Of a DNA stretch of 64,000 nucleotides, positions 1,939 to 42,000 are shown piece by piece. The position numbers and the translations under genes are program-made. Each line of letters opens with the position of its first letter. The stretch's first letter is position 1. Source of the stretch: Ascaphus truei (Eukaryota > Chordata > Amphibia > Anura > Ascaphidae); NCBI GenBank assembly GCA_036426205.1, contig CM071574.1, forward strand, positions 13,879,124 through 13,943,123, read 5' to 3'. The notes below the pieces were generated by a model. That model worked only from the letters and a program-made list of their open reading frames with translations. It was not told the DNA's origin and ran no database searches.

Positions 1939-2085
1939 ATTCTCAAAGGAAAAGCTGCTTTACTGTAGGTGGGTGAAAGTGGGCAGTCATTTGTAGTATG
2001 GCTTCATATGGCAGAAAGCTTACTTTTAGAAACTGGTAAAGAACCTTTCATGTTAAATGATGTATAATCTATTTTTAATCACTAT

Positions 2086-3102
2086 GGACCAGATGCATTA
2101 AGCTCCGATAATTCAGGGCAGACAACGTCAGGTTCTCTAAATAGGTAATATGCACTAAGCTAAACATATGCAAGAACAATGGCTATCATTTAACTCATTA
2201 GCATAGGGTTAATGTTAGGTTAATTTAGCACAACCTTGAGTTTGTTTTAAATAATTTGACGTTAATTTATGTTTTACCTAAAGTTGGCGTTAGCTCTGTC
2301 CGGACCCTTAAATATGGGGTTTACTGGAGAGGAGGAGAGGAGTCATTACAATAACTTTGCATATCATATTAGCATATCTCCCAGGTGTACTCTTTTTTTT
2401 TAGTATGTGTATCTCCATGAGTTGTTTGAAGGAAAGTTTCAGGGGATATAAATAGCATTTGGGACATACCTAAAATAGGTGTCTCTCTTATATGCAATGT
2501 TAGGGGGACATCTATTTTGCATATCATTAGCTCTAGTGGCCGGGGGAAAAAAATAACTATATGTTATTTAAAGAGTAACACTGGGTTAGCGTTACATTAT
2601 TTGCTTTAGTGGATAGTCGTTATGATTAAAGCAACAGAAAATAGGATACCTTACATGCTTTTTTTTTAAATCAGTTTTGTAGTATTAGATAATACAGTAG
2701 TGACTGTTTTTTATTATTCTTATTCAACTCTTAATGACATGTTAATGAGTTATTTAATATACTGATCATCCTTTGATTTCTGTAGCAGGTTTTAGCCACC
2801 TCCCCAGCAGTGCAAGATCCTTGCAACTCTTTCCTGTGTGTGATCATGTGTTGCCAATGTTCCCATCAGTTTCAGCTGTAAACTATAACAATAGATAATG
2901 TTACCTTAGTACTATCAGGATATATTATAGCTGCTGTGTTACACTGACTGAAGCAGCCATTCTGTTAGGCACACTATCATGATTTTTACAGCTTTATAAC
3001 AGGAGCACCAAATGATTGCCAGTTTAGGTAAGAATGTAGAATTATACATTGTCACATGCACGTTAGGTTAAATTGGCTAACGGAGCTTAATGCATCTGGC
3101 CC
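2086..3102. mobile_element. Non-autonomous Harbinger-type element (about 1 kb)
   Basis: The left end begins GGACCAGATGCATTAAGCTC and the right end is its inverted copy, GAGCTTAATGCATCTGGCCC, with one mismatch over about 22 bp. The interior is AT-rich and has no transposase frame, so it is a deletion derivative or MITE. The termini resemble those at 10180 and 18931 (GGGCC..ATGCA.TAAGC), which groups these elements together. I assign it to PIF/Harbinger from the terminal style and the transposase found in the larger relative. A clear 3-bp target duplication cannot be picked out. Confidence 0.7.
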
Positions 3103-3420
3103 AATGTTTTCTATTTTCTGTCTCCCATGGATAACATTTATATTTTTACAGAAGAACTTCATTTTCAATCTTGATTTTGGATGCAATTAACACATCTTTT
3201 CCCTTGGGCCCAATTAACCTCTAGCAGGTAAACAAATTATCCCCTTGCAAATTCCACATAGTGTGAGTATAAAGGTTATCTTCCACAGGTTATTTTTAAG
3301 CTTCCCTAAAGCATTATTTACTTAATCTATATTTTTTGCAATATTTATTACCAAACAATGTAAGGAACGCACACACTTTGTATGTTTGTTTAAGATTGAT
3401 GCTTGCGTTGTTTTCTAGTT
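3103..3420. other. Unassigned sequence
   Basis: I see nothing recognisable here. Confidence 0.4.
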
Positions 3421-10179: not shown

Positions 10180-10500
10180 GGGCCTCATGCAGTAAGCGCC
10201 GATACGGCTTTTATTGGCATTTTCCCGCCAAAATTGGATTTGAGATTCAGTAAGCGCCGATAAGTGGTCAAAATCGGCGATTTTTCTTGCCGATAAAAAT
10301 TTATCGGCATGCGGCTGCCGATAACCCACTTATCGGCACTTTTTGGCACTTTTTGAAATCGGCTGTATTCAAGTAGCCCAGATCAGCTTATCGTTGCTGA
10401 TCGGCACTCAAAAATGGAGATTTCATCGGTAATTTGTCCCGCCAACTAAAGTTGGCAAGTTGGAGGGAAGAAGTATCGGCAAGGTTGCCGGGACGGCACT
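10180..10500. promoter_or_regulatory. Subterminal GCCGAT/ATCGGC repeat cluster
   Basis: At least nine copies of GCCGAT or its complement occur within about 300 bp of the left end. One 15-bp word, CAGTAAGCGCCGATA, occurs twice (10191 and about 10246). Subterminal repeats of this kind usually serve as binding sites for an element-encoded DNA-binding protein. The right end has only weak matches (ATCGGGCGGG near 18872). Confidence 0.6.
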
Positions 10501-11574
10501 TAGAAAAAAAAGCTCATCTCTACATCAATGGAGTCAATGGAGCGGGGACATATAGCATTATAAGAGTGTTTACGTTCTATTGCTCATAATAAAAATGTGA
10601 TTGGCATTAGAGTGTCGATGTCATTCACTTCATCATGTCAGCGCTTACGTTTATTATTGGCAGAACATTGTACATTTCAATGTTATGATGATTTGCGTGG
10701 CACATTAGTCTTAATGTTATGATGTGTCAAGGGAAACTCCTATAGTAAACTCTTAAAGGAACAGGTCACATAATATGAAACATGTTACTTAAGTGTGCTT
10801 CAATTTATTATATGATGTAACAGATTTCACACATCTAACAGATCCAGCGTATAGTAATGTTGGTATACATTAGAGAATGCTTTGAATATGTAACGCATGA
10901 TCAAATGTAAATGTAGCTGTTTGTTTTCATGTTTACTTTGTGACCTCCCTCTTTTGATGACATCCGCAATTGGACACTCAATAACATTGCATGTTTACAT
11001 TGCACACGATGCATTAGAATCACTTCATGCTAAGTTATACACACATCTATAATAGTTACTCATTTTTACACGATTGAAACATAATCAATAGCAAGTATCC
11101 TGATGGCATTAAATTATGCATATGCAAATTACAATTAGTTCATGTGAACATGTGACAATAACATGCCAAATTAGACATGTTGCAACATAATTTTTCCACG
11201 TCAATGTCATGGTTGTATCCTAATGAGATGACTGAGTGTTGCATTCAAAAGTGGTACATGCATTACACATTCCATAAATACTTGCGAATAAATGGTTGTA
11301 CAAAGCTTAACGTTACATCATTGTCAAATATCATGATTGCCTGGTGAACACACATAAATAATCCATTTAATTCGTACTGGATACCCGTTTGGAGTTAACT
11401 ACTTGGGTATGTTAATGTAACACCATGCACTTCATCAAGTCACTTGACATCATCACATAGCTATTTAAAGGAGGCTAATTACCTGCGCATTGACAGCTAC
11501 AGACCTGAAAATGATGCAAATGTTTATGAGACGGAGGAAGATTCTATTGGAGGAGAGGCTAGCTGAGGGTCAGG

Positions 11575-12780
11575 ATGTCACAGGCCAAGGAAGGGACAGG
11601 GACAGGGACAGGGATGCGGAGAGGGAGAGGACGAGGGAGAGGGCAAGGAGATGAGAGGAGAAGAGAGAGGAGAGAAGTTGTGCCTAGTCCTCGTTTGTAC
11701 AGGGAGAGAACCATGTTATATGGGATGAGTGAGGAGGAGATTATAAATCGCTATCGTTTGAGTTCAGCAGCAATCTTAGCTCTTTTGAAGAGATACGGGG
11801 AGATTTAGATTTTGTGACAGCCAGAGGTCGTGCAGTCCCTGGGCTTGTTAAAATGCTGTGCTCATTACATTATCTTGCTTCGCGTCATTCCAGACAACTG
11901 TGGGCATAGTGGGCGGGGTCTCGCAATCTACATTCTCACGTGCCTTTACCCAGTTTCTATGTGCACTGAATAGACGCTCTAGGAATTATATTCATTTTCC
12001 TACAGAGCACACAGAGTGGCTGGAAGTGAGGAATGGCTTTTATACCATAGCCGGGATACTATGTGTGATGGGTGCAATAGATTGCACCCATGTTGCTTTG
12101 ATCCGCCTAGTCAGAGTGAGCATGCTTACCACAACCGTAAGCACTACCATTCCCTGAATGTACAGGTGGTATGCGATGCCATGATGAAGATTATGCATGT
12201 GGTAGCCAAATTCCCTGGTTCCAGTCATGATTCCTCTATCCTGAGAAACTCATCAGTCTTCCATGCTTTCGAAGAAGGCTATTTTGGACCTGGTTGGCTG
12301 GTGGGTGAGTACATATTATGATGTGTTAACAAACAACTCTATTTTTTCTATGAACTGTTGAATGCAATCATGTTAACACTAATTGTATCATATTTGTGCA
12401 CGATGGATTATAGGTGACTCAGAATTAGGCCGTGGCTGTTGACCCCTGTGACAAACCCTCAATGTGAAGCAGAGGAGAGGTACAATGTTGCCCATATATC
12501 TACCGAGATCTGTCATAGAGAGGACATTTGGGGTTCTGAAGACACGATTCAGGTGTTTAGATAGAACTGGAGGGGCACTTCAATATAAGCCTGCTAAAGT
12601 GTCAGATATTATAATGGCATGTTGCATTTTGCACAATCTGGCACTCCGCAATAATTTAGAAACCGACATACGTCAGGGCTTGGAGGAGGAGCATCCCGTA
12701 AATTTACCAGCTGACACTGAGCAAACAGCCAGTGGTGTGGAGACACGTCGGAATGTCATAAACACATATTTTTCATGTAA
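11575..12780 (+). pseudogene. PIF/Harbinger transposase, frameshifted pseudogene
   Basis: The pieces in order resemble HARBI1-type DDE nucleases. An Arg/Gly-rich N-terminus leads into RLYRERTMLYGMSEEEII (about 11692-11745). A segment with VPGLVKMLCSLHYLAS follows in another frame. Next come VSQSTFSRAF (helix-turn-helix side), MGAIDCTHV (first catalytic Asp, about 12067-12093), KFPGSSHDSSIL (second Asp, about 12208-12243) and, past an intron, VIERTFGVLKTRFRCL (catalytic Glu, about 12508-12555). All three acidic residues remain, but frameshifts near 11805, 11885, 12105, 12430 and 12510 break the frame. In the source family the enzyme cuts DNA at the element ends with a Myb-like partner. This copy cannot make a full protein. 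Confidence 0.88.
12305..12413 (+). other. Probable 109-nt intron in the transposase
   Basis: The frame ...GWLV is followed by GTGAGTAC, and the homologous GDSELG resumes right after TTATAG. Joining 12304 to 12414 recreates the expected WLVGDS motif exactly in frame. Both splice sites are canonical GT-AG. Confidence 0.75.
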
Positions 12781-12802
12781 GCAAATACATATATGTTCAT
12801 AG

Positions 12803-14475
12803 TACTACATAGATGTATTAATTCATTGTAATGATAAACACGTGTCCAAATACCATTCACTTAGGAAACAGATCAATATGGTTCTCACACCTTTCTCTTC
12901 TCTGCTGTGTGGACAATTGCATGTGGCACCAGTATGTCATTCATCAACAGGTTGTATTATACTTCTTACCACTGAAAGGTGTTGTGTGTACGTGAGGAAA
13001 TAATGTGTACTACATCTATATTTTCTGTACATGCTCCTTTTGGTTATGCATACACAATAAACCTACTATGTTGATAGCCAATAGCTAGTGCAGTATGGTT
13101 ACATACAATTTTTCTTTTGGAGTGTGACATGTGTGTCACAATGATGTGTAGACTATTGTGTATTTAAGATCATATTTGACGTATTCTAGATTTTGTTTCA
13201 TATCACATACAAAATTGTCACTTCTGTATGTTGCTTACCTTAATGAACATGTCATGACAATGATTTATATTCATTCATGTTTTCTTTTTCAAGGTATATC
13301 ACTCCAAGGACTGCTCATGGTATGTATTTGAATTCACATCTGTCATATGATGTGCAAACCTCGATACAGGTATAGTTACAGGATGTATAAACAGAACGTA
13401 ATGAAAAAGATGTGACAATTGAAACATGTCGTTTCTGTATTGTGTCCGTGCGTTTATCTACACTTGGTGGTTATTGTGCAGTGTGTTTTCAAATCATTAC
13501 GTACATTACATAACATGTAATTTTGGCAACGTAACAACATCCATTCATGCACTTGAGCGATGTTAACACTCAAAGCATGTTTGTATAAAAAGACCCAAAT
13601 GTGTTAAACATCATTAACATTGCAATGTATGTGATTAGTTCTTCTCTCACTTCATCTTCATTTTGATAACTACATTGTCACATGTGTATGTATAAGTCAA
13701 AGATGTGTGTTGATTTGACGTTCATCTAACATTTGTCAAAATGTTAACACCATTCCAAAGTATAGTTCTTTGGATTCTCAACTTTTCCTAAATCATTCAA
13801 CACAATGACAATGTAGTTAATAATTTTTTTATTTAATTCACGTTAGTTATTCATAATGATCATGATCCTTTATAACTACTGTCAACATATGAACATAAAT
13901 GAAGTGGACATTTGCATACGCACACATTTCAGCAACATAGTGTGTGTGTGTGTTGAAGTTTTTGTGTGATGCATGTATTTCGACCAGAAATAATATAAAC
14001 CAACATAATAATGTTGCTTTTATGATCGGCCTCACTTAGCTATATATGTGTAGAACGTTTACTAATAACACTAAACTATAGTTACTCGTGTGAATTAAAT
14101 GTACACACAAATGTTAATGGTTTAATGATCTGTACCTAACATTCATTAGCTCATGCATGTTAAGTTATCACTACAACTTAGGTGATAATATAACATTCAC
14201 ACGGCTAAACAGTTTCTATCACCTCCCTGTTATTATTGTGTACGTTCAGATACAATGTCTATGAGTTATGTAGCATTTACATTCTTTGACAAGTCACACG
14301 TGAGATTATAATATATAGTAGGTGATATATTGAGTTCAATATAGCGCTCTTCTGACAAAAGAAATCAAATTAATACATGTGACAATTAAAAACCTGTGAT
14401 ACAAAAGTACAAAAGATTGTCCTGGAGCTGCCCAAAGGTTGTTCTGGTCTCTCCCAACCAGAAGTAGATATATAG
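12803..14475. other. Non-coding interior of the putative Harbinger element
   Basis: AT-rich sequence with many ACATGT/GTTAAC-like words. Apart from the polyadenylation signal I see no domain-bearing frame and no inserted repeat. Confidence 0.45.
13056..13061 (+). promoter_or_regulatory. AATAAA polyadenylation signal
   Basis: It lies about 280 nt downstream of the end of the transposase homology, on the same strand. The hexamer alone is weak evidence in AT-rich DNA. Confidence 0.4.
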
Positions 14476-14756
14476 ATGGAAAAAACCTCCTGTGGCGCTG
14501 AGGTAAGGATATGGATGTGGTCGTGGATGAAGTTCTTTTCTTAGACAGTTACCTCAAGAAAAAAAAAAACATACAAAAAACACTGCAATAGTGCATTACC
14601 CAGGGACAAAAATGGATAAATATAATGGAGCAAATTGAATAAAACAATTAACACATAAAACAATTAAACAATTAATCAAAACATAATATAATAATATGAC
14701 AAACATATATCAATGGATGCCAATGTCAAATTTTCCTGTGCGTCTGCACTATGAGG

Positions 14757-15158
14757 AATGAACTTGCTCCGCCTTGATAAAATTGAAATCCTACTCACCA
14801 AAGTAAGCGTCTGGCTTATTTTACCCCACGGCGAGCGGTTTACCTGGCGAGAAAGACCTTAAAACAAATGGGCATGTCCTAGTCACCTTTGGTGAGTAGG
14901 ATTTCAATTTTATCAAGGCGGAGCAAGTTCATTNNNNNNNNNNNNNNNNNNNNNNNNNNNNNNNNNNNNNNNNNNNNNNNNAATGAACTTGCTCCGCCTT
15001 GATAAAATTGAAATCCTACTCACCAAAGTAAGCGTCTGGCTTATTTTACCCCACGGCGAGCGGTTTACCTGGCGAGAAAGACCTTAAAACAAATGGGCAT
15101 GTCCTAGTCACCTTTGGTGAGTAGGATTTCAATTTTATCAAGGCGGAGCAAGTTCATT
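14757..15158. repeat. Exact 177-bp direct duplication flanking the gap
   Basis: Positions 14757-14933 and 14982-15158 read identically as far as I can compare by eye. Each begins AATGAACTTGCTCCGCC and ends in its inverted complement. The exactness and symmetry around the N run suggest a duplicated contig end at a hairpin rather than a biological tandem repeat. Confidence 0.9.
14934..14981. other. Assembly gap (48 N)
   Basis: A run of 48 undetermined bases at the centre of a palindromic element. Confidence 0.99.
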
Positions 15159-15441
15159 CCTCATAGTGCAGACGCACAGGAACATTTTACATTGGCATCC
15201 ATTGATATATGTTTGTCATATTATTATATTATGTTTTGATTAATTGTTTAATTGTTTTATGTGTTAATTGTTTTAATGAATTTGCTCCATTGTATTTATC
15301 CATTTTTGTCCCTGGGTAATGCACTATTGCAGTGTTTTTTTGTATGTTTTGTCTTTTTTCTTGAGGTAACTGTCTAAGAAAAGAACTTCATCCACGACCA
15401 CATCCATATCCTTACCTCAGCGCACAGGAGGTTCTTTCCAT

Positions 15442-15957
15442 CCATATAATATATAGTAGATTAATGTGTTTGCTGAGTGATAATGTTGGTTGCATATATC
15501 ACATGGCAATACATATGTTAGTAGAAAAGAAAAAAATATCAAAATAAGTTCTAACTTCAGTGCTTAGCAACATCATTATGATAATTAAGTGCATAGTAAA
15601 TATTTGCACAATAGGATAACATTATGTAGTGATTGTTAATCTGCGCACCAATCATTGAAAGCATTGTTACATATTTATTATAATAGTTGTTCGCTAGTCG
15701 TCACAATCACCTAATATAACGATTGGCCATCTGAAATCATACATTGGTCCCATGTATTCATCATCGACATCTGTGAAATACAGCAAACACATGATGTTCA
15801 AAGATGGCACATTTATCTATGTCTCAGCATGACAACGCTTAACACATCTCTATATGATTGTGGATATTCACGCATAAGTTACGTATATGTTTAAATTGCA
15901 AGGATAAAACTACAGATGCAGAACTGTCTCATTTTTCAAATGGCGATACTGGCATTA
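15442..15957. other. Non-coding AT-rich interior of the putative Harbinger element
   Basis: I see nothing specific here. Confidence 0.4.
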
Positions 15958-16520
15958 CTACTGATATGTTTGTTCCGGTGCTTGTATACATAATAATGTG
16001 CGTGCACAACGTCTGTTGCGCGCGCACGTCACAAATGTGTGGACTAAGTCTTAGCGCCTACGCAAAATTATGTGTACGCTGTGCATTCAATACATGTCCC
16101 TCCATGGTGCTGCTAGCATTACGCATATCATGGCTGAAAGTTATGATATGGAAGCGAAACAAATTCACTTCTACACACGTACATATGTAAACTTTGTAAA
16201 CGGACGTGTGCCCACGGCAAAAACGGACGATCAGCCAATGAGCGAACAAAATACGTGTGACGTCATGTTAAGGCACCGTGAAATGCACGCAAACACCCCT
16301 CCCACTGAATGAACATTGGCCTCCAGCGCTGTGCACGCACCGCCCCACCGACGCGCGCGCATGACACACTGCACTGACCGTAACAATAAGCTACGGGTAC
16401 AGCCAATACTGTTTCACGCGTGCATGTCGGTTGGGGGTGGGGCTTGCATCGGTAACCTTTTAAGGACGCCTTGGGACCTGACCACGTTTCCACGTCATAT
16501 GTGGGCGACACTTTGTTTTT
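15958..16520. promoter_or_regulatory. CpG-rich block with CRE palindrome and CCAAT box
   Basis: This stretch is clearly richer in CpG than its AT-rich surroundings (for example GCGCGCGCACGTC and CGACGCGCGCGC). It contains a full CRE palindrome TGACGTCA at 16258-16265 and a CCAAT box at 16235-16239. It lies downstream of the stop codons of both flanking genes, so it is not an obvious promoter for either. It could drive an antisense or unannotated transcript, or be an inserted CpG-rich element. Confidence 0.45.
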
Positions 16521-16818
16521 ATATGTTGAATGCTAAACAGTGTGTGTGTGTGTTACAGTTAGTGTAACATGTTGAAATGATACTTTAAAAGCGATTATAA
16601 TCTATGATTTAGGACTCTGTCACCAATGTGTACTAATGGTTTGTCATGTAGTATATTTTTATAGGAAATAATGTCTTTGTGCACGCTACATGTAAGGCTG
16701 TCTGCAATGTTAAGCTGTATCCACTCATTTGGCTAACAAATGGTGTATATTATTAATGTACACATATATAATTTGAGTAAAGGCATAACGAAATTTGTGT
16801 TTACCATTCTTGTAGAAG

Positions 16819-17457
16819 TCAAAACTGATTTGGCTGCAACAATTCGCTCCAGGAAGGCACAACAGTATCATCCATGGTTGAGGCAACCGTTGACTCCTGA
16901 ATCACACACATCTCCATGAGGGTGTCATATGGATCTGCAGTGGCTACTTCAAACAAGACGTCCGGAGGTACGTACAGTTGTTGGTTGTTTTCACATCCAC
17001 ATTGGTATTGCCCATATAGGTTTTGATACATATCATAGTAGTTATGTCCATCTTGCATGTGGTCTTGATGAATCGAGGGTGCAGGTATATCAGCAGACGC
17101 AACAGTCGGTGCGGCTTCAGTGTAACTGGTATTAGGCAAAAATATGCTATTTAACAGAAGATATGTTCCATGTTCCATGGTAAGTTTAAATGATGGCGCA
17201 ACATGCCAGCATCCATATCGTTGATCTAGCCGATCATGGACACGCTCAAAACATTCATTTGCGGATAAAGTGAATCGTACAGAAGTTTTAAAATTTTGTT
17301 GTTTGTCAGGTTCTTGGTAGTATGGATATTTCTTTTGGATCAAGTCATAGATTTGCCCCACGGTTGCCCTTTTCTCTGGCATTGATTCGATTGCTTCATA
17401 AATCATAAATTTGTATGATTTACGTGGATGGCTAGGCAATGTGGAAGCTTCTGCCAT
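16819..17457 (-). CDS. Divergent forkhead (winged-helix) domain protein
   Basis: An uninterrupted ATG-initiated frame of 212 codons; the ATG at 17457 has G at -3 and G at +4. A forkhead-like domain spans about residues 12-101: SYKFMIYEAI (helix 1), PEKRATVGQIYDLI then YPYY (helix 2), SVRFTLSANECFERV (helix 3 and following), CWHVAP (wing region) and MEHGTYLL. The layout matches canonical forkheads (PEKR..L..IY..I...PYY, S.RH.LS.NECF.KV, YW...P). In the recognition helix, however, the usual Asn and His contacts are replaced (KTSVRFT where NSIRHN is typical). The C-terminal half has an Asn/Gln/Tyr-rich stretch (about 133-165) and ends acidic-hydrophobic. By family it would be a nuclear DNA-binding regulator. 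It lies inside a probable Harbinger element, convergent to the transposase. I cannot place it in a Fox subfamily. Confidence 0.82.
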   Translation of the reverse strand: MAEASTLPSHPRKSYKFMIYEAIESMPEKRATVGQIYDLIQKKYPYYQEPDKQQNFKTSVRFTLSANECFERVHDRLDQRYGCWHVAPSFKLTMEHGTYLLLNSIFLPNTSYTEAAPTVASADIPAPSIHQDHMQDGHNYYDMYQNLYGQYQCGCENNQQLYVPPDVLFEVATADPYDTLMEMCVIQESTVASTMDDTVVPSWSELLQPNQF

Positions 17458-18011
17458 TTCTTCTCTCTTCAAGTGTACAGTGTCTAAGTTGAACGCATAC
17501 GGATGTCTGCTGAATGTGTGAATAGTTACATGTTATCTTTGCGGTTTGTTCCAAGGTTATAATACAACCTAATAGTTATACGCCTAGGTTTTCTCCCATA
17601 AGAAATTTGTTACAATAATTGGCTGAAATTCTTTGTCTAAGATACACTCTACACAGGAATCGAAACTTTACTTTCGGCTTAGGCAATCAACATGTGCAAA
17701 ACAACTTGACTCTTTTAATTACAATAACAATGTGTGTGAAATCATCTACAGTGCTATGATGAACAGATTTCTGCTTACACTTAGCTAGATTTAACCATAC
17801 ACAAACATCTCTCTCTTTGTCTCTTTTTCTGTTTTTCTCTCTCTCTGTTTCTCTATCTCTTTGACTCTCTCTGTTTGTCTCTCTTGATATATACATATAT
17901 ATATATATATATAAATAAATATATATATAATTAGATAAATATATTAGATAAATATATATATTGTGTAAGACATGCAAATGAACATACAGTAATATTTACC
18001 GTTGCTATATA

Positions 18012-18012
<1 letters not shown>

Positions 18013-18046
<34 letters not shown>
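18013..18046. repeat. (CA)n microsatellite
   Basis: About 16 CA units, followed by TGTGTGTG in inverted sense. Confidence 0.95.
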
Positions 18047-18047
<1 letters not shown>

Positions 18048-18546
18048 TGTGTGTATATACATATTAGATAGAGATACAGAGAGACTACAGATATATTCAT
18101 ACACACTTACAGATCTGTTATTGTAACCAAAAATCATACATGATCACATGCCAACATTATGAACTATGAAACAAGATTAAGGTAAGTAATGTCTTACAGA
18201 GTTAAGACACCAGAAAACATTACATAAAAATGTATGCTGTTATATGGGTACTTACTTAAAGTTGTATGTCAATAATATTAGCATGAAATGACTATCTACA
18301 TTACCAAAATAACCCACATACATCTCATCTTGAACAAGAGCTAAGTGAATGTCATCTTCCATTAACAAGTGTGTAATAATGTTGTACCATTAATCAACTG
18401 ATTATTAATACATATTCATATGTTATCAAATATGCCTTCATTCAGTCAGTGAGCATTTCTAAACATTCATGTGTATAAGGACATACTTGAATGTTATCAA
18501 GCATCTGTACATGATCATACATACACTATGCATGAAATAGTCTGCA

Positions 18547-18553
18547 GTAAACA
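18547..18553. promoter_or_regulatory. Forkhead consensus-like site GTAAACA
   Basis: A match to the classic Fox core GTAAACA. Three more (as TGTTTAC) lie at 10567, 10930 and 10992, between the left end and the transposase. Such heptamers arise by chance in AT-rich DNA. Confidence 0.25.
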
Positions 18554-18590
18554 AAACCAGGACACCAACAAATTTAGTGAATGTGATTAT

Positions 18591-18890
18591 TTATTTTTGT
18601 TTATCCTTTTGAGAGCGAGTCACAGGCCTGCTTGTTGGCTGTTGTGTTTGCCTTTTCCCTCTTCCAAGTACTCTGGCCTTAACTGTACGACTTGTACTGG
18701 CCTGTGGTAGTTCTGTGGCACTGGGTGTGGGCTGTGTCACTTCAGTAGCACTAAGTGTGGGCTGTTGCACTTCAGGGGCACTGGGTGTGGGCTTTTGCAC
18801 TTCAGGGGCACTGGGTGTGGGCAGTGGCAGTTCAGTGGCACAGTGAATCGCGCCTCCGGCTTCACTTTTTATCGGGCGGGTTATTTTTTT
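18591..18890 (-). pseudogene. Pro/Thr/Ser-repeat reading frame at the right end of the element
   Basis: On the minus strand an open frame without an ATG runs from about 18890 to a stop at 18591. It contains three or four copies of a 10-residue repeat (PTPSAPEVQQ, PTLSATEVTQ, PTPSATELPQ), a 30-bp DNA repeat, followed by a basic tail (VKARVLGRGKRQ, then RSQKDKQK). A terminal exon or C-terminus of an element gene is possible because it lies just inside the right end and is directed inwards. I recognise no family, and it could be a translated minisatellite. Confidence 0.35.
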
Positions 18891-18936
18891 TCAGCCTGAC
18901 GGATAATCACGGAGCTTAGTGCATAGGCCCCATAGT

Positions 18937-19174
18937 ATTGAAGCAGGGGGTCTCTGGAGCTGGACCGCATTCATTTCAGCCCCGGGGACCCCCTACTTCC
19001 TGAGGTACAGGTTCCGGTATCTCTCTGCAGGCTTAATTCTCCCGTGTCACATGACTGGGACATTTAAACTTTGTGGAGATACTGGCACCCCATACCGGTG
19101 CCTGTAACTCAGGACACAGGGGGTCCCCGGGGCTGAAAAAATGTGGTTCAGTTCTGGAGACCCCCTTCTTCAAT
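18937..19174. mobile_element. Foldback MITE fragment with 'GGGGTCTC' arms
   Basis: The left arm ATTGAAGCAGGGGGTCTC and the right arm GAGACCCCCTTCTTCAAT are inverted copies, about 55-60 bp long and both including CAGCCCCGGGGACCCCCT. The same arms occur inside the element at 52692-53125. It lies directly against the right Harbinger end, so one may have inserted next to the other. Confidence 0.7.
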
Positions 19175-19935
19175 CCTATGAAATTAAAATAAAATTAAAG
19201 CTACGTGAAAGAGAGTCTAGGTAGCCACGATGGCACTCAATGAGTAGCTGAAATAAATATTTTACTTACCCCATCCTAAATGACGGCCTCCATATTCAGG
19301 GAAATTAGCCCTGCGCTCTTTTTCAACCAAAAGGGCCAATGTTAAACCATCCAAAAAAAACATTTCAAAGGCCAGATGGCCAAAAAACAGGCAAACAAAC
19401 AAAAAATACACAAGCCCAATGGCAAAAAGAAACAAAAAAAAATACAAGAAAAACAAAAAAAGTTAAATCAATCCAGGCCTGATGGTGTATTTGTAATCTG
19501 TAGCAATCCAAGCTTGATGACATTGGCTCCTCAATTTGCCACAAAGCCCTCGATGCTCAGTTGATAGCAGAGAGTTTCCTGTAAGTATTTATTTCCTATC
19601 TTCTTTTCTTTTTTTTTTCTTTAAAGCTGTCTTCTTTCTTCTCTTCTATTTCAGCCACCGGATGAGGCCTTTTCAGCTTCTTCCTGCTTTCTGAGATAGC
19701 CAAGCCTTATATATTGCCAAGGCCAAAGAATTCTCTACTACTCTGCGTTAGGTGCCAGGTATAGCCGTGACCTAAATTAACATAGCATTAAGTCACACGT
19801 GAATTTGAACGATGCTGTGGATATGCATTGAGATGGTCCACACATCTTTTACATATTATTAGCCAACCGTCTGTTAAAGTTAACGATTGGCCTTCTTAGC
19901 TTTAAGACAGCAGATAACACCTCGTTAGGGAGCTT
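19175..19935. other. Unassigned sequence
   Basis: Contains A-rich and T-rich tracts (19413-19465 and 19602-19622) but no recognisable gene or repeat family. Confidence 0.4.
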
Positions 19936-20182: not shown

Positions 20183-20578
20183 CTAAAAAGATGTCCAACC
20201 TTTTTTGAACAAATCTATTGTATCTGCCATCACAGTCTCCATGGGTAATGAATTCCACATTTTAACTGCCCTTACTGTAAAGAACCCTTTCCTTTGTTGC
20301 TGGTGACATTTCCTTTCCTCCAACCTTAAGGGATGGCCCCGAGTCCTTTGTACTGCCCGCGGGATGAATAGTTCTTTTGAAAGCTCCATGTATTGTCCCT
20401 GAATATATTTGTATATAGTTATCATATCCCCTCTTAGACGCCTCTTTTCTAATGTAAATAAATCTAATTTAGCTAGCCTCTCCTCATAAGTTAGAATGTC
20501 CATCCCCTTTATTAATTTGGTGCTCTTCTCTGCACTCTCTCTAGTACCATAATTTCTTTTCTTAGGATTGGTGCCCAA
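20183..20578 (-). pseudogene. CR1 C-terminal domain after reverse transcriptase
   Basis: This conserved CR1 tail contains TYEERLAKLDLFTLEKRRLR, GDMITIYKYIQG, TRGHPLRL and FFTVRAVKMWNSLP, ending near FKKGWTSF. It is open for 131 codons in a different frame from the RT core. Its function is not known to me. Confidence 0.8.
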
Positions 20579-20639
20579 AATTGTACTCCATATTCAAGGT
20601 GTGGCCTTACTAATGCTTTGTAAAGGGGCATAATTATGT

Positions 20640-21333
20640 TTACTTCCCTTCCATCCATTGCCGTTTGATGCAAGATAAGATCTTGTTTGCCTTTGCAGCT
20701 ACTGCATGACATTGGGCACTATTGCTAAGCCTGCTGTCTACAAGCACTCCTAAATCCTTCTCCATCAAGGATTCCCCCAATATATCTCCATTTAATTTGT
20801 AAGTCGCCTTTTTATTCTTGTATCCCAAATGCATAACCTTACATTTATCTGTATTAAACCTCATCTGCCATTTACCTGCCCACGTTTCCAGTCTCTCCAA
20901 GTCCTTCTGAAGAGAAATTACATCCTGCTCTGATTCTATTACCTGACAAAATTTAGTATCATCAGCAAAGATGGAGACTTTGCTCTCGATCCCAACCTCA
21001 AGGTCATTAATAAACAAGTTAAAAAGCAGGTGTCCCAGTACTGATCATTGAGGTACTCCACTCACGACTTTAGCCCAACCTGAAAAAGTTCCATTTATGA
21101 CAACCCTCTGTTGTCTGTCCTTTAAACCAGTTTTCAATCCAGGTGCATATATTATTACTGAGTCCAACTTTCTTTATTTTGTACACCAACCTCTTGTGTG
21201 AAACCGTATCAAAAGCCTTTGCAAAATCTAAGTAGACCACATCAACTACATTACCCTGGTCTAGATTCCTACTTACCTCCTCAAAGAAACAAATAAGATT
21301 AGTTTGGCAAGATCTATCCTTCCAAAAATCCAT
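20640..21333 (-). pseudogene. CR1 reverse transcriptase core
   Basis: Motif A is VVYLDFAKAFDTVSH (about 21215-21170). Motif B reads SGVPQ, then a TGA stop where Gly is expected (21045-21047), then SVLGHLLFN with His for the usual Pro. Motif C is FADDTKF (about 20960). The downstream thumb-like part contains WQMRFNTDKCKVMHLG and MEKDLGVLVDS. In a live element this enzyme copies the RNA at the nicked target. The nonsense codon in motif B and frame breaks near 21068 and 20640 show it is dead. Confidence 0.88.
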
Positions 21334-21573
21334 GCTGACTATTACTAATAATTTTGTTTTCCATTAGGTATTCTTGAATATTATCCCGTATTAAACCTTC
21401 AAGTAGTTTCCCTACTATTGAAGTCAGGCTTACAGGTCTGTAATTTCCCGGTTGTGATCTAGCTCCCTTTTTAAATATAGGCACCAAATCTGCTTTACGC
21501 CAATCTTGTGGTTCTGAGCCTGTGGAAATGGAGTCCTTGAATATTAAATATAATGGTTTTGCTATTACTAAGC

Positions 21574-22365
21574 TTAACTCCTTGAGAACTCTTGGATGTA
21601 TGCCATCGGGCCAGGTGCCTTATTAACTTTAATTTTTTCATGTCGCTTATGAACTTCTTCCTCATTTAACCAATTGTTCATTAATATGGAGGTTGTGGCT
21701 TCCTCCTGCGGCACTACTATTGAACTTGATTCTTCCCTGGTAAACACAGAGGCAAAGAATTTTTCCTTATCTCCAATAATCTGCCTACCCATCTCACACT
21801 GAAAGGGTCCTATATTTTCTTTTCTCATTTTTTTGTTATTAAGATACTTAAAGAATTTTTTAGGGTTGACCTTACTTTCTATTGTAATCCTTTTATCATT
21901 ATCCATTTTTGCTAATTGAATTGCCCTTTTGCAATTTTTGTTACATTCCTTATAATTCTGATACGATGTCTCTGTCCCTTCTGACTTAAATAATCTAAAC
22001 GCCTTCCTCTTCTTGTCCATTTCCTCCCCTACCTGTTTATTTAGCCACATTAGTTTTGACTTATTTCTTTTATACTTATTACCCAAAGGTATACACTGAT
22101 AAGTGTGCTTTTCTAACAATGTTTTAAAGACTGCCCATTTATCTTCTACATTTTTCCCTGCAAAAACATCATCCCATTGTATTACTACTAGATTAGACCT
22201 CAGTTTATTAAAATCTGCCTTTCCAAAGTTGAAGGTCTTTGTTGAACCCAAGTTATCTGTTTTTTGATCATTTATTTCAAATGAGACCATGTTATGATCA
22301 CTGTTACCCAAATGTTCCAGAACTTGAATATTTGTTATTACTTCTACATTGTTTGATATGACCAA
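21574..22365 (-). pseudogene. CR1 linker between endonuclease and reverse transcriptase
   Basis: An open stretch of 263 codons joins the end of the endonuclease (SDHNMVSFEI) to the start of the reverse transcriptase region (about EEVHKRHEKIKVNKAPGPM, ending near 21590). It contains a Lys-rich helical segment around MDKKRKAFRLFKSEGTE. It is the longest surviving connector in this copy. Confidence 0.75.
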
Positions 22366-22930
22366 ATCCAGAACTGCCCTCTCCTGGTTGGTTCCTCAAT
22401 AATTTGGGTCATATAATTGTCTTTAAGCACCCCCAAAAACCTGTTCCCTTTTGTTGTAACGCTAATCTCATTGCCCCAGTCTATGTCTGGATAATTAAAA
22501 TCCCCCATTATGCAAACATGACCCAGTTTTGATGCCTTCTCCATTTGCAAAAGTATTTTAGCTTCCTCAATCTCACAGATATTTTTGGTGGTTTATAGCA
22601 TATTCCCACAAACATTTTCTTTATAATTTTACCTCCACTAATAATTTCTATCCACAAGGTCTCTACATTTTCATCATTCCCTTCATAGACATCATCCTTT
22701 ATAATAGGTTTTAGATCCGGTTTAACATATAAAAATACTCCACCTCCCCTTCTATTTGTTCGATCCTTCCGAAAAAGAGAATAACCCTCTAAATTAACTG
22801 TCCAGTCATGAGATTCATCCCACCATGTTTCAGTAATGCCTATGATATCATACTGTTCCCTTGCAGCTATTAATTCAAGCTCCCCCATTTTATCTGTCAG
22901 GCTTCTTGCATTAGCAAGCATGCATTTAAG
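22270..22930 (-). pseudogene. CR1 endonuclease domain
   Basis: The reading frame 23428-22508 runs from the esterase end into MLANARSLTDKMGELELI, IIGITETWWDE, GYSLFRKDR, GGGVFLYVK and VGICYKPP. The next frames hold MGDFNYPDIDW (about 22510-22475) and LGNSDHNMVSFEI (about 22320-22280). These are the standard apurinic-like endonuclease landmarks: catalytic Glu in TETW, Asn in GDFN and His in SDH. In a live element it nicks target DNA to prime reverse transcription. Frameshifts near 22550 and 22360 inactivate it. Confidence 0.85.
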
Positions 22931-22969
22931 TTTTTTTTCAGCATGTACTATTATCTTATCTGCTCCTTC

Positions 22970-23661
22970 CTTTCTGCGCCCATTTTGTTTAGTCTTTAGA
23001 AGTTTTCTAGTATTATCTGTATTTACTATGGGTGTCTCACTGCTTGTCAAACTTGCACTTGCCCCCATTCTACCTCCATACCACCTTGTATCCTCATCTA
23101 TTCCATTTAGTTCATTATCTGTTTCATTCCCCTCCCCCCTCCATCTTAGTTTAAATTCTCCTCCAACCTTTTTAGCATTCTCCCCCCCTAGCACAGAAGA
23201 TCCCTCTTCATTGAGGTACAATCCGTCCCTAGAATATAGATGGCACCTCTTAGAAAAGGACTCCCAGTGCTCTAAAAACCCAAACCCCTCCTTCCTGCAC
23301 CACTTTCTTAGCCATGCATTAACCTCCCTGATCTCTGACTGTCTCCCTGCGGTAGCGCATGGCACTGGTAGTATTTCAGAAAATACTACCTTGGAGGTCC
23401 TTGCCTTAAGCTTTTGGCCTAGATCCATCTTTCTCTAACTTTGTCATTGGTGCCAACATGTACCAAGACCGCCGGGTCAATCCCAGCCCCCCCCAACAAT
23501 CTGTCTTCCCGATCCACAATGTGCCGAACCCGAGCACCCGGGAGACAACAAACTGTTCGGTTCATGCGGTCCCGGCAACAGATTGCCCTATCTACCTTCC
23601 TAATAATGGAGTCCCCTACCACCACAATCTTTCTTTGTATCTGAGCATCCAGGGTCCCCAC
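22970..23661 (-). pseudogene. CR1 ORF1-type SGNH esterase region
   Basis: The blocks seen are VVVGDSIIRKVD (block I with the nucleophile Ser, about 23600-23630), VLVHVGTND (block III, about 23443-23470) and DGLYLNEEG (block V, about 23205-23235). Block V normally holds the catalytic Asp and His of a D..H pair; here Tyr stands in the His position, so activity would be doubtful even if the frame were intact. A frameshift near 23425 splits it. CR1-like elements are known to carry such esterase domains in ORF1, though their role in retrotransposition is unclear. Confidence 0.75.
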
Positions 23662-23698
23662 TGTGCTGGAGGAACTATTCCCCTGTAATCAATTTTTA

Positions 23699-23815
23699 GG
23701 ACCCTCCATCTTTCTCTAACTTTGTCATTGGTGCAAACGTCTACCAAGACCGCCGGGTCAATCCCAGCCCCCCCCCCCCCCAACAATCTGTCTACCCGAT
23801 CCGCAATGTGCGGAA
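23699..23815 (-). repeat. Duplicated segment of the CR1 esterase region
   Basis: It repeats 23421-23522 almost word for word (CATCTTTCTCTAACTTTGTC to GATCC.CAATGTG), with an expanded C run (about 14 C against 8). It suggests a local tandem duplication or an older 5' fragment. Confidence 0.85.
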
Positions 23816-23979
23816 GAGTCCCATAAGCCCTTAATGAGATGTTACCTGAAGTTAATTAATTATTTATTTATAAAATATTTTACCAGGCAGTAATACATTG
23901 AGAGTTACCTCTCGTTTTCAAGTATGTCCTGGGCACAGAGTTAAGACAAACAATACATGTTTACAAATACAGTTACATA

Positions 23980-24311
23980 CAGGCATACCCCGCATTAACG
24001 TACGCAATGGGACCGGAGCATGTATGTAAAGTGAAAATGTACTTAAAGTGAAGCACTGCCTTTTCCCCACTTATTGATGCATGTACTGTACTACAATCGT
24101 CATATACGTGCATAACTGATGTAAATAACGCATTTGTAACAGGCTCTATAGTCTCCTCACTTGCTCACAGCTTTGGTACAGGTAGGGAGACAGTATTGCT
24201 GTTCAGGACGTGCTGACAGGCGCATGCGTGAGCTGCCGTTTGCCTATTGAGCGAGATATACTTACTCGCGAGTGTACTTAAAGTGAGTGTCCTTAAACCG
24301 GGGTATGCCTG
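23980..24311. mobile_element. 332-bp MITE with TA duplication inside the L2 3' UTR
   Basis: The inverted ends CAGGCATACCCCG and CGGGGTATGCCTG match over 13 bp and are flanked by TA on both sides (23978-23979 and 24312-24313), the duplication typical of Tc1/mariner-like elements. ACTTAAAGTGA words are repeated inside both halves. Confidence 0.8.
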
Positions 24312-24371
24312 TAATGAGCAGGGTATACATTATATACAAGACATTGCATGCACAGTTAAAGATAATTTATA

Positions 24372-25093
24372 TTATGGGTGTATGAAACAGTTACAGACCA
24401 GATTAAAATGTGTGACAGCCTTAGATTTGAAAGAACTTAGACTGGTGGTGGATGTAAGAGTCTCTAGTAGGTTGTTCCAGTTTTGGGGTGCACGGTAAGA
24501 GAAGGAGGAGCGGCTGGAAACTTTGTTGAGCCTTGGGACCATAAACAGTCTTTTGGAGTCTGATCTCAGGTGATAGGTGCTGCATGTGGTAGGGGTGAGG
24601 AGCTTATTCAGGTAGCTGGGTAGCTTGCCCATAAAGAATTTGAAGGCAAGACAGGAAAGGTGAACTTTGCACCTAGACTCGAGTGATAACCAATCTAGTT
24701 CTTTGAGCATTTCGCAGAGATGTGTGTTATAGTTGCATTGGAGAACAAAATGACAAATTGAATTGTAGAGGGTGTCAAGTTTGCTAAGGTGGGTTTGAGG
24801 TGCTGAGCATATACTATGTCTCCATAGTCAATAATTGGCATTAGCATCTGCTGTGCGATACGTTTTCTGACCAGGAGACTTAGGGAGGATTTGTTCCTGT
24901 AAAGTACCCCTTTTTTGGCATGGGTCTTGGTTGTCAGAGTATCAATGTGCATCCCGAATGTTAAGTGGGAGTCAAACCATATGGCCAGGTTTTTAAAACT
25001 ACTAACAGGAATTAGGGTGGTGTTAGTGTTGGTTCTAATCTGGCGCTCAGTCGATGGAAGCTTTAAAAATTTAGTCTTGGTCCCAAACACCAT
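24372..25093 (-). pseudogene. L2-like LINE C-terminal region
   Basis: Two shifted frames follow the reverse transcriptase: NLAIWFDSHLTFGMHIDTL (25093-24695) and then HLRSDSKRLFMVPR and SFSYRAPQNWNNLLETL (24710-24372). The latter matches the 'AP..WN.LP' tail common to L2 ORF2 proteins. A frameshift separates them. Confidence 0.8.
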
Positions 25094-25113
25094 TGTTACA
25101 GTCTTGTCAGTGT

Positions 25114-25524
25114 TTAAAAACAGTTTGTTTTGGGAAATCCAGTTTTCGAGTCTGAAAAATTCAGACGAAAGTTTGTGTTGAAAGTATGGCTGTGTGCATA
25201 TAGCATGGCGTCATCTGCATACATGTGTATTGAGGCTTCCTGACAAGCTGTGGGAAGATCATTGATGAACACTGAGAAGAGTAGGGGCCCCAGAACAGAG
25301 CCTTGCGGGACGCCACAGGTGATATCCAGGGTGCTAGAGTTAGAGCCACAGATGGACACATGTTGGGATCTTCCTGATAGGTAAGTCTGAAACCAGTTTA
25401 AAACATGCTTCCCTATTCCAGAGCTCTGGAGTTTGTTGAACAGGATAGCATGATCAGCAGTATCAAAAGCCTTTGCAAAATCTAGGAATACTGCACCAGT
25501 GAGTTGACCCGTTCCATTCCACAC
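25114..25524 (-). pseudogene. L2-like reverse transcriptase core
   Basis: One 136-codon frame holds motif A (VFLDFAKAFDTADHAIL), motif B (CGVPQGSVLGPLLF, then INDLP) and motif C (HMYADDAMLYAHS) intact. It is in the same frame as 25615-26700 but separated from it by a stop. The sequence is typical of the L2 clade, unlike the CR1 copy next door (FADDTKF). Confidence 0.88.
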
Positions 25525-25614
25525 TGGATTTCATTGACAACTTTTAGCAGGGTAGTTACGGTAGAGTGTTTGGGGCGAAAGCCAGATTGGAATTGGCTAG
25601 GGAAATTTGTCTTG

Positions 25615-26700
25615 TTATAGTAATCGCTTAATTGGGAGTGTACACATTTTCCATGACTTTGGATAGGATTGGGAGAAGGGAGATTGGCCTGTAGTTTGAG
25701 ACAGTGTTTTTGTCCCCACTTTTGAAGATTGGGACAACTCTGGCAGCTTTCCAGGTCTTGCAGACAGGATAGAGTTGACTATGGAAGCAATTGGTTTGGC
25801 AATTGCTGGGGCACCAAGTCTTAGGAACCTAGATTGTAGTAAGTCAGATCCACATTGGCTGCTTAGTTTTAATTTGAGAAGCGCTTGTGTAATCTCCTCT
25901 TCGGATACTGGGCCAAATTGAAAATTGTGGGCAGTGTTGGGAGGGGGTGGGCCTATAGGGGTACTCCCAGGATGAGATTTAGGTTTGTGGTTTGGGTTGC
26001 GTTTTGCTAATAAGTTAGTAGCACACCCCACAAAGTAATCATTGAATGCATTTGCAATGTCGGTGGGGTTTGTCAGAGTAATATCGCCCTTAGTGATATT
26101 ACTTGGGTGTTGTTTGTTAGAAGGCTCGAATATGTTGTTGATAACCTTCCAGAAGTTAGCTTGGTTTGATGTGTTCTGGAGGAGATTGTCAGAGTAATAT
26201 TGTGCTTTTGCATGCCTTGTTTGCTTTGTGCACATGTTCCGCAGGCATCTGTAGTGATTGAGATCCTTGGTAGTGCCAGTTATTTTGTGGCTTTTCCACA
26301 AGGCATCCCTGAACTGGTAGAGTGCTATAAGGTCAGGTGTAACCCATGGAAGGTGGGCACCCCGTATCCTTATTCTGCGTAGTGGAGCATGGGTATTACA
26401 GAGTTTTAAGAACTCGGATTGGAAATAGTCGAGTGCAGAATCTGGGTCAGGAATTAAATCGATTCTGTGCCAAGGGCAGTTGGTAAGGTCAGCCAGAAAC
26501 TGTTGTGGGTTAAAGTTTCTAAATGTTCTAGTGAGGAGAACTTTAGGGCTTGATTGGGGCGGTTTAATTTTCCTTAAACAGTATACTATTGCATGGTCAC
26601 TGATAATGGCAGGAAGGATGCCAGAGGTTTGGATTCTGCTGGGATTTGAGGAGGGAATCCAGTCAATCAAGGAATGGTGTGCGATTTCAGGTTTGTTCAT
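25615..26700 (-). pseudogene. L2-like endonuclease end and linker
   Basis: A 361-codon frame begins in the endonuclease C-terminal part with the catalytic-type ISDHAIVYC. It continues through RTFRNFNPQQFLADL, a long basic linker and SEEEITQALLKLKLS just ahead of the reverse transcriptase. This is the longest open frame in the window, but it starts mid-domain, showing 5' truncation of the element. Confidence 0.82.
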
Positions 26701-41744: not shown

Positions 41745-42000
41745 AGCCAGATGCATGAAGCTCTGTTAGCCTATTTAACATAACTAAAGTTAACATTACT
41801 TTAATCTTAACGCCAAATCATTAAAGAGTTAATCACTGAAATAACTTATTGATACATTTCTACAGACGTTAGGGTCATGCATATGCAAATAAGATGCTAA
41901 TGACCTGTTAGCTATACATCGCAGATACGCTAAACTCCTTTAAGGTTAGCGCAGGGAAATAACGTTAGGATAAATTGGTCACACCTGAACTTTAAGTAAT
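41745..42000. mobile_element. Harbinger-type MITE fragment
   Basis: Starts GCCAGATGCATGAAGCTC, close to the end of the element at 2086, and continues with TTAACGCC and TTAGCGCAGG-like words. I do not find the opposite end. Confidence 0.5.

Follow-up and report, generated by a model that had tools for sequence, protein, structure and literature searches.

The 64,000-nt stretch of contig CM071574.1 of the frog Ascaphus truei analyzed here (the window) contains, on its minus strand at positions 16819 to 17457, an open reading frame (ORF) of 212 codons for a forkhead-domain protein. We consider it reasonably probable that this ORF belongs, as a third gene beside those for a DDE transposase and a Myb/SANT-like protein, to a PIF/Harbinger transposon family of high copy number, that its domain goes back to one captured host Fox domain, and that its product, as predicted, is an element-specific DNA-binding protein.

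The presence of a 212-codon forkhead ORF, recognized earlier from the letters alone (the sequence-only reading), was borne out. Its product belongs to the Pfam Forkhead family (PF00250; 72.3 bits against a gathering cut-off of 27; E = 3.6e-20), and its stop-free frame extends over 237 codons, a length reached in none of 400 simulated segments (longest, 221). The nearest solved structures to the first 106 residues are FOXG1 (2.6e-12) and FOXC2 (5e-12). Searches of NCBIfam and PHROGs with the protein returned nothing informative, the viral contigs searched gave two pattern matches and no relative, and single-sequence structure prediction reached a mean pLDDT (predicted local distance difference test) of only 37. 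A retrocopy origin of the ORF was considered and rejected: there is no run of eight or more A downstream, and direct repeats around the ORF measure only 10 to 11 nt. A search of the 2.82-Gb genome with the protein yielded 12,043 loose candidates, and all 150 places that were scored, the window included, matched with 86 to 100% identity (E < 1e-120); this number is a minimum and should not be read as the copy number.

Ten other copies, picked from the best matches without a stop in the forkhead frame, were fetched with their flanks. In every one of them, the alignment to the window continues to either side of the forkhead ORF, and an insertion that the window has at 14322 to 15444 is absent. 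Transposase sequence is present in nine of them; in the tenth, c3, the stretch starts downstream of the transposase position. The product of copy c2a is a PIF/Harbinger transposase by its DDE_Tnp_4 domain (2.2e-17). Near the right end lies a Myb-like gene on the minus strand, whose Myb/SANT exons match PF13873 (Myb_DNA-bind_5) at 1.3e-12 when two exons are joined by hand. By tblastn, the Myb/SANT DNA-binding exons were found with at least 89% identity in five of the ten copies (c4a, c1b, c3, c2b and c4b), c1a has only Myb-like remnants of 50 to 59% identity, and the exons were not found in c5071 (where the contig ends), c9, c5 and c2a. Copy c3 holds every recognized exon of the Myb-like gene, the last being the counterpart of a window ORF at 18594 to 18841. 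The gene order is common to copies at different loci: transposase on the plus strand, then forkhead and Myb-like genes on the minus strand. In c4a and c2b, transposase, forkhead and Myb exons lie inside one element bounded by a target duplication (GTA and TTA, respectively), although the transposase of c4a is broken. Since these two copies hold all three genes together, with the forkhead gene between the other two, it is a third gene and not a substitute for the Myb-like one, and the layout departs from that of two-gene Harbinger elements. In c4b (L026-L027), a 538-codon open frame on the minus strand runs from Myb-like sequence into an apparent reverse transcriptase, possibly because a retroelement has landed in that gene.

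The ends of the element are those of a PIF/Harbinger family. The left terminal inverted repeat of the window copy, GGGCCTCATGCAGTAAGCGCCGA (10180 to 10202, plus strand), is identical in c4a, c1a, c2a and c2b, and its exact 18-mer at 10180 recurs in six of the ten other copies, which marks it as the left end of the family. In the same four copies, the true right end opposite it reads GGGCTCTATGCAGTAAGCGCCGA or differs from this by 1 nt; the family right end (...TCGGCGCTTACTGCATAGAGCCC or a close variant) is found in seven of the ten and differs in sequence from the right end in the window. Both ends are thus present in four copies, of which three have matching 3-bp target duplications (GTA/GTA in c4a, TAA/TAA in c1a, TTA/TTA in c2b; CAT/ATG in c2a is a mismatch), and duplication-bounded copies span 9 to 14 kb. 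Short inverted ends with a 3-bp duplication, as expected of PIF/Harbinger, are therefore a property of the family and not of the window copy with its foreign right end. Inside the ends, GCCGA repeats accumulate: five left ends have 7 to 11 of them per 300 nt and seven true right ends 5 to 9, over a background of 0.17 per 300 nt in the whole window. In the window copy, these GCCGA/TCGGC repeats, candidate protein binding sites, occupy 10198 to 10480 (plus strand; 9 within the first 300 nt). The proposal that the forkhead gene is cargo of the element is upheld by its recurrence at separate loci, where the same pair of ends encloses it and the target duplications match, and by the relation of its domain to host Fox domains.

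The copy in the window is a truncated and decayed one (10180 to 18841, plus strand), extending from the left end to the last Myb-like exon with about 86 to 97% identity to copies elsewhere. A HARBI1-type transposase near the forkhead ORF had been recognized correctly, though it is frameshifted: its two exons (11511 to 12790, plus strand), both open in c2b, have left DDE_Tnp_4 matches of 4e-15 and 1.2e-9 scattered over several frames. A Protein Data Bank (PDB) search with two transposase pieces was uninformative, and scanning the window for Rfam families and tRNAs led no further. The insertion at 14322 to 15444 is palindromic, specific to this copy and flanked by a 15-nt target duplication (14307 to 14321 and 15445 to 15459), with the empty site preserved in c4a; within the palindrome, an exact 177-nt duplicate flanking 48 N (14757 to 15158) is probably an assembly artefact. 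The last exon of the Myb/SANT-like gene (18594 to 18841, minus strand), its head missing, has PTPSAPEVQ repeats, ends in KDKQK and corresponds to the same stretch in c3; the proline-rich minus-strand ORF that contains it (18594 to 18848) has no Pfam match. This tail matches 39 other scored places, none of which extends over the right-end DNA of the window, and the junction lies at 18841/18842. From there to 18931 (minus strand) follows a Harbinger-like end that is foreign to the family, lies outside the 39 tail matches and is devoid of GCCGA repeats. Judged by its sequence, the window copy is an element from which the rest of the Myb-like gene and the original right end are gone and to which another Harbinger-like end has been attached.

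The sequence-only reading had taken the positions 10180 and 18931 as the two inverted ends of one segment. Their outer 26 nt are indeed alike (score 30; with a 26-nt probe the score was 27, and none of 3,000 shuffles exceeded 23), and the left end is that of the family, as its 18-mer in six of ten copies shows. The right end is not its partner: a third end, near 3103, resembles this right end equally well (score 29), inward of the two ends the sequences match no better than by chance (956 of 2,000 shuffles were as good), and no target duplication was seen around 10180/18931. Hence, with the family right end being different as well, the pair was rejected; ends from different element families, which that reading had named as a reason to abandon it, are found in the window copy and not in the family. 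The end near 3103 belongs to a second Harbinger-like element (2084 to 3103) with paired ends GGACCAGATGCATTAAGCTCCG and GGGCCAGATGCATTAAGCTCCG; near 41745 there is a further end related to these. Directly next to the foreign right end, at 18930 to 19182, comes a short repeat that has inverted ends (CATAG.ATTGAAG...).

In Harbinger elements that have been studied, the Myb-like protein binds a subterminal motif and carries the transposase into the nucleus (PMC9710019, PMC9179366); for Harbinger3_DR, the bound subterminal motif is 9 bp long (PMC9710019). By analogy, the GCCGA repeats at both ends of the present family may be sites for such Myb-like binding. For the forkhead protein, the likeliest predicted role is that of an element-specific DNA-binding helper. 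It would bind element DNA, either in the promoter region or at the subterminal GCCGA repeats, and, together with the Myb-like protein, would promote expression or help the transposition complex to assemble. In canonical Fox proteins, an Asn and a His of the recognition helix contact bases. FOXG1 and FOXC2 have WQNSIRHNLS, and both residues are retained in the more Fox-like repeats L050 (WKNSIRHNLS), L053 and L054 (WKNTVRHNLS). L063 has WKTSVRFTLS and the window family FKTSVRFTLS; in the latter, Thr and Phe stand in place of Asn and His, and the canonical recognition residues are missing. That both residues were lost on the way to the window family suggests a change in the DNA specificity of its forkhead protein.

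The same residues speak to a rival explanation, in which the forkhead protein is a hijacked host regulator that drives transcription of the element in host cells and is not a transposition factor. The Fox core motif is TGTTTAC; it occurs three times in the left 1,300 nt, a number reached in only 2 of 300 shuffles. Over the whole 11.1-kb core, however, its five occurrences are matched in 65 of 300 shuffles and thus are no enrichment, and the window family no longer has the canonical residues that contact bases. We regard this explanation as rather unlikely.

Where did the domain come from? Of 150 places scored in a forkhead profile search of the genome, 21 scored 107 to 140 bits, were stop-free and are probably host Fox genes. 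The other 129 scored 73 to 94 bits, and 16 that were fetched fall into several diverged types. The 6-kb flanks of six such diverged repeats contained related Harbinger sequence in five cases: open transposase exons with 73% identity at L058, transposase with 56 to 89% identity per piece and the left end GGGCCTATGCAGTAAACGG at L054, transposase fragments at L055 and L050, and element DNA of 76% identity at L063. Because diverged forkhead repeats also adjoin related Harbinger sequence, the association of the two looks old. A diverged element that may also have three genes is L058 together with L066; its transposase exons are open, and it has a forkhead frame. When 12 forkhead domains of elements were placed in a tree with 21 from host genes or the PDB, all element rows fell on one side with a support of 100/100, and we infer one old capture of a host Fox domain; in the same tree, the FOXG1 domain L072 is identical to its PDB row, as fits a vertebrate.

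Age and selection were assessed on 32 forkhead copies, most of them picked for open frames: they are 93.7 to 99.2% identical to their consensus, 28 are without a stop and one carries an insertion of 3 nt. Between subfamilies, dN/dS (the ratio of nonsynonymous to synonymous substitution rates) of the consensus against L061, L062 and L063 is 0.45, 0.54 and 0.56, values equally low in 12, 52 and 11 of 1,000 neutral simulations, respectively. Ratios below 1 between subfamilies suggest a function of the forkhead gene, and we infer weak purifying selection that maintains it.

Several observations weigh against a maintained third gene of single origin. Variants within the young family are near neutral (0.82 for singletons, 0.52 for those in two or three copies and 0.92 for those in four or more), and mostly open frames were chosen for fetching, which inflates the apparent intactness. 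Copy c2a is devoid of Myb DNA-binding exons and has unequal flanking triplets (CAT, ATG). No Harbinger sequence was found within 6 kb of L059. When two poor host rows were added to the tree, one a domain in the wrong reading frame and the other long-branched, support for one clade fell to 55/96, with 58% of the bootstrap trees. Furthermore, host Fox genes with intron-split domains lie outside the tree sample, and a single capture is for that reason possible rather than demonstrated. Finally, separate captures are possible because the forkhead proteins of the consensus and L058 share 28% identity and their transposases 73%. In the full scenario, the DNA-binding domain of a host developmental regulator would have been taken up a single time by a Harbinger lineage and have become a third component of the transposition machinery; as the lineage radiated into several families, the helix would have been re-tuned from host Fox sites to the DNA of the element. 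This scenario is put forward tentatively, with somewhat less than even confidence.

Alternatively, the forkhead gene may be passenger cargo, a captured host Fox exon that hitchhikes, its open frame reflecting the youth of the burst. The similarity of the 32 copies to their consensus and their near-neutral variants fit this explanation; the diverged subfamilies, however, retain open forkhead frames (with the preference for such frames in fetching) with a dN/dS below 1 against the consensus, and we hold it to be unlikely. Far less credible is the substitution of the forkhead gene for the Myb-like partner, which the sequence-only reading had offered. The window copy is indeed without a Myb DNA-binding exon, and none of 20 further ORFs in the segment matches Myb, but c4a and c2b refute the proposal at the family level, and the well-preserved Myb/SANT exons in half of the ten copies and the last exon that the window itself retains also speak against it. 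That Harbinger elements merely inserted by chance near a host forkhead gene family can be dismissed: host-type Fox genes do occur in this genome (the 21 places of 107 to 140 bits), but ten other loci have the same kilobases flanking the ORF, enclosed by ends with target duplications, so that a host gene at one locus is rejected as well.

Elsewhere in the window, remains of a LINE-like element with reverse transcriptase and endonuclease domains lie on the minus strand (20183 to 26700), and 16.5 copies of a 35-nt unit form a tandem array (1368 to 1938).

With the two-gene Harbinger elements of vertebrates, as far as the accessible text of the sources describes them (PMC9179366, PMC9710019), the family shares the DDE transposase, the Myb/SANT-like protein, short inverted ends, the 3-bp duplication and subterminal repeats; it differs by the additional forkhead gene and by the large size of its bounded copies, 9 to 14 kb. 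The Harbinger elements of the newt Pleurodeles waltl likewise have expanded in a large vertebrate genome and carry a Myb-like gene, and the part of that source available mentions no forkhead gene (PMC5741667). ISL2EU is also of the Harbinger-like superfamily with a second gene beside the transposase, which is a YqaJ exonuclease; the accessible text names neither a Myb-like nor a forkhead gene there (PMC9179366). With FOXG1, FOXC2 and FOXA/HNF-3, the protein shares a forkhead domain of about 80 to 90 residues, but it is encoded by an element, short (212 residues) and different in its helix. A Harbinger element with a forkhead gene was not found in a literature search whose reach ended before most subscription papers and Repbase. 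A Harbinger family with a forkhead third gene is different from the elements described, in the source text available, as two-gene.

If our model is true, a DNA transposon has recruited the domain of a developmental regulator as a part of its own and retained it in copies at numerous loci and across diverged families. The three-gene family would be a direct test case for the rise of new specificity in element-encoded DNA-binding proteins, and annotated forkhead genes in such genomes may be transposon genes.

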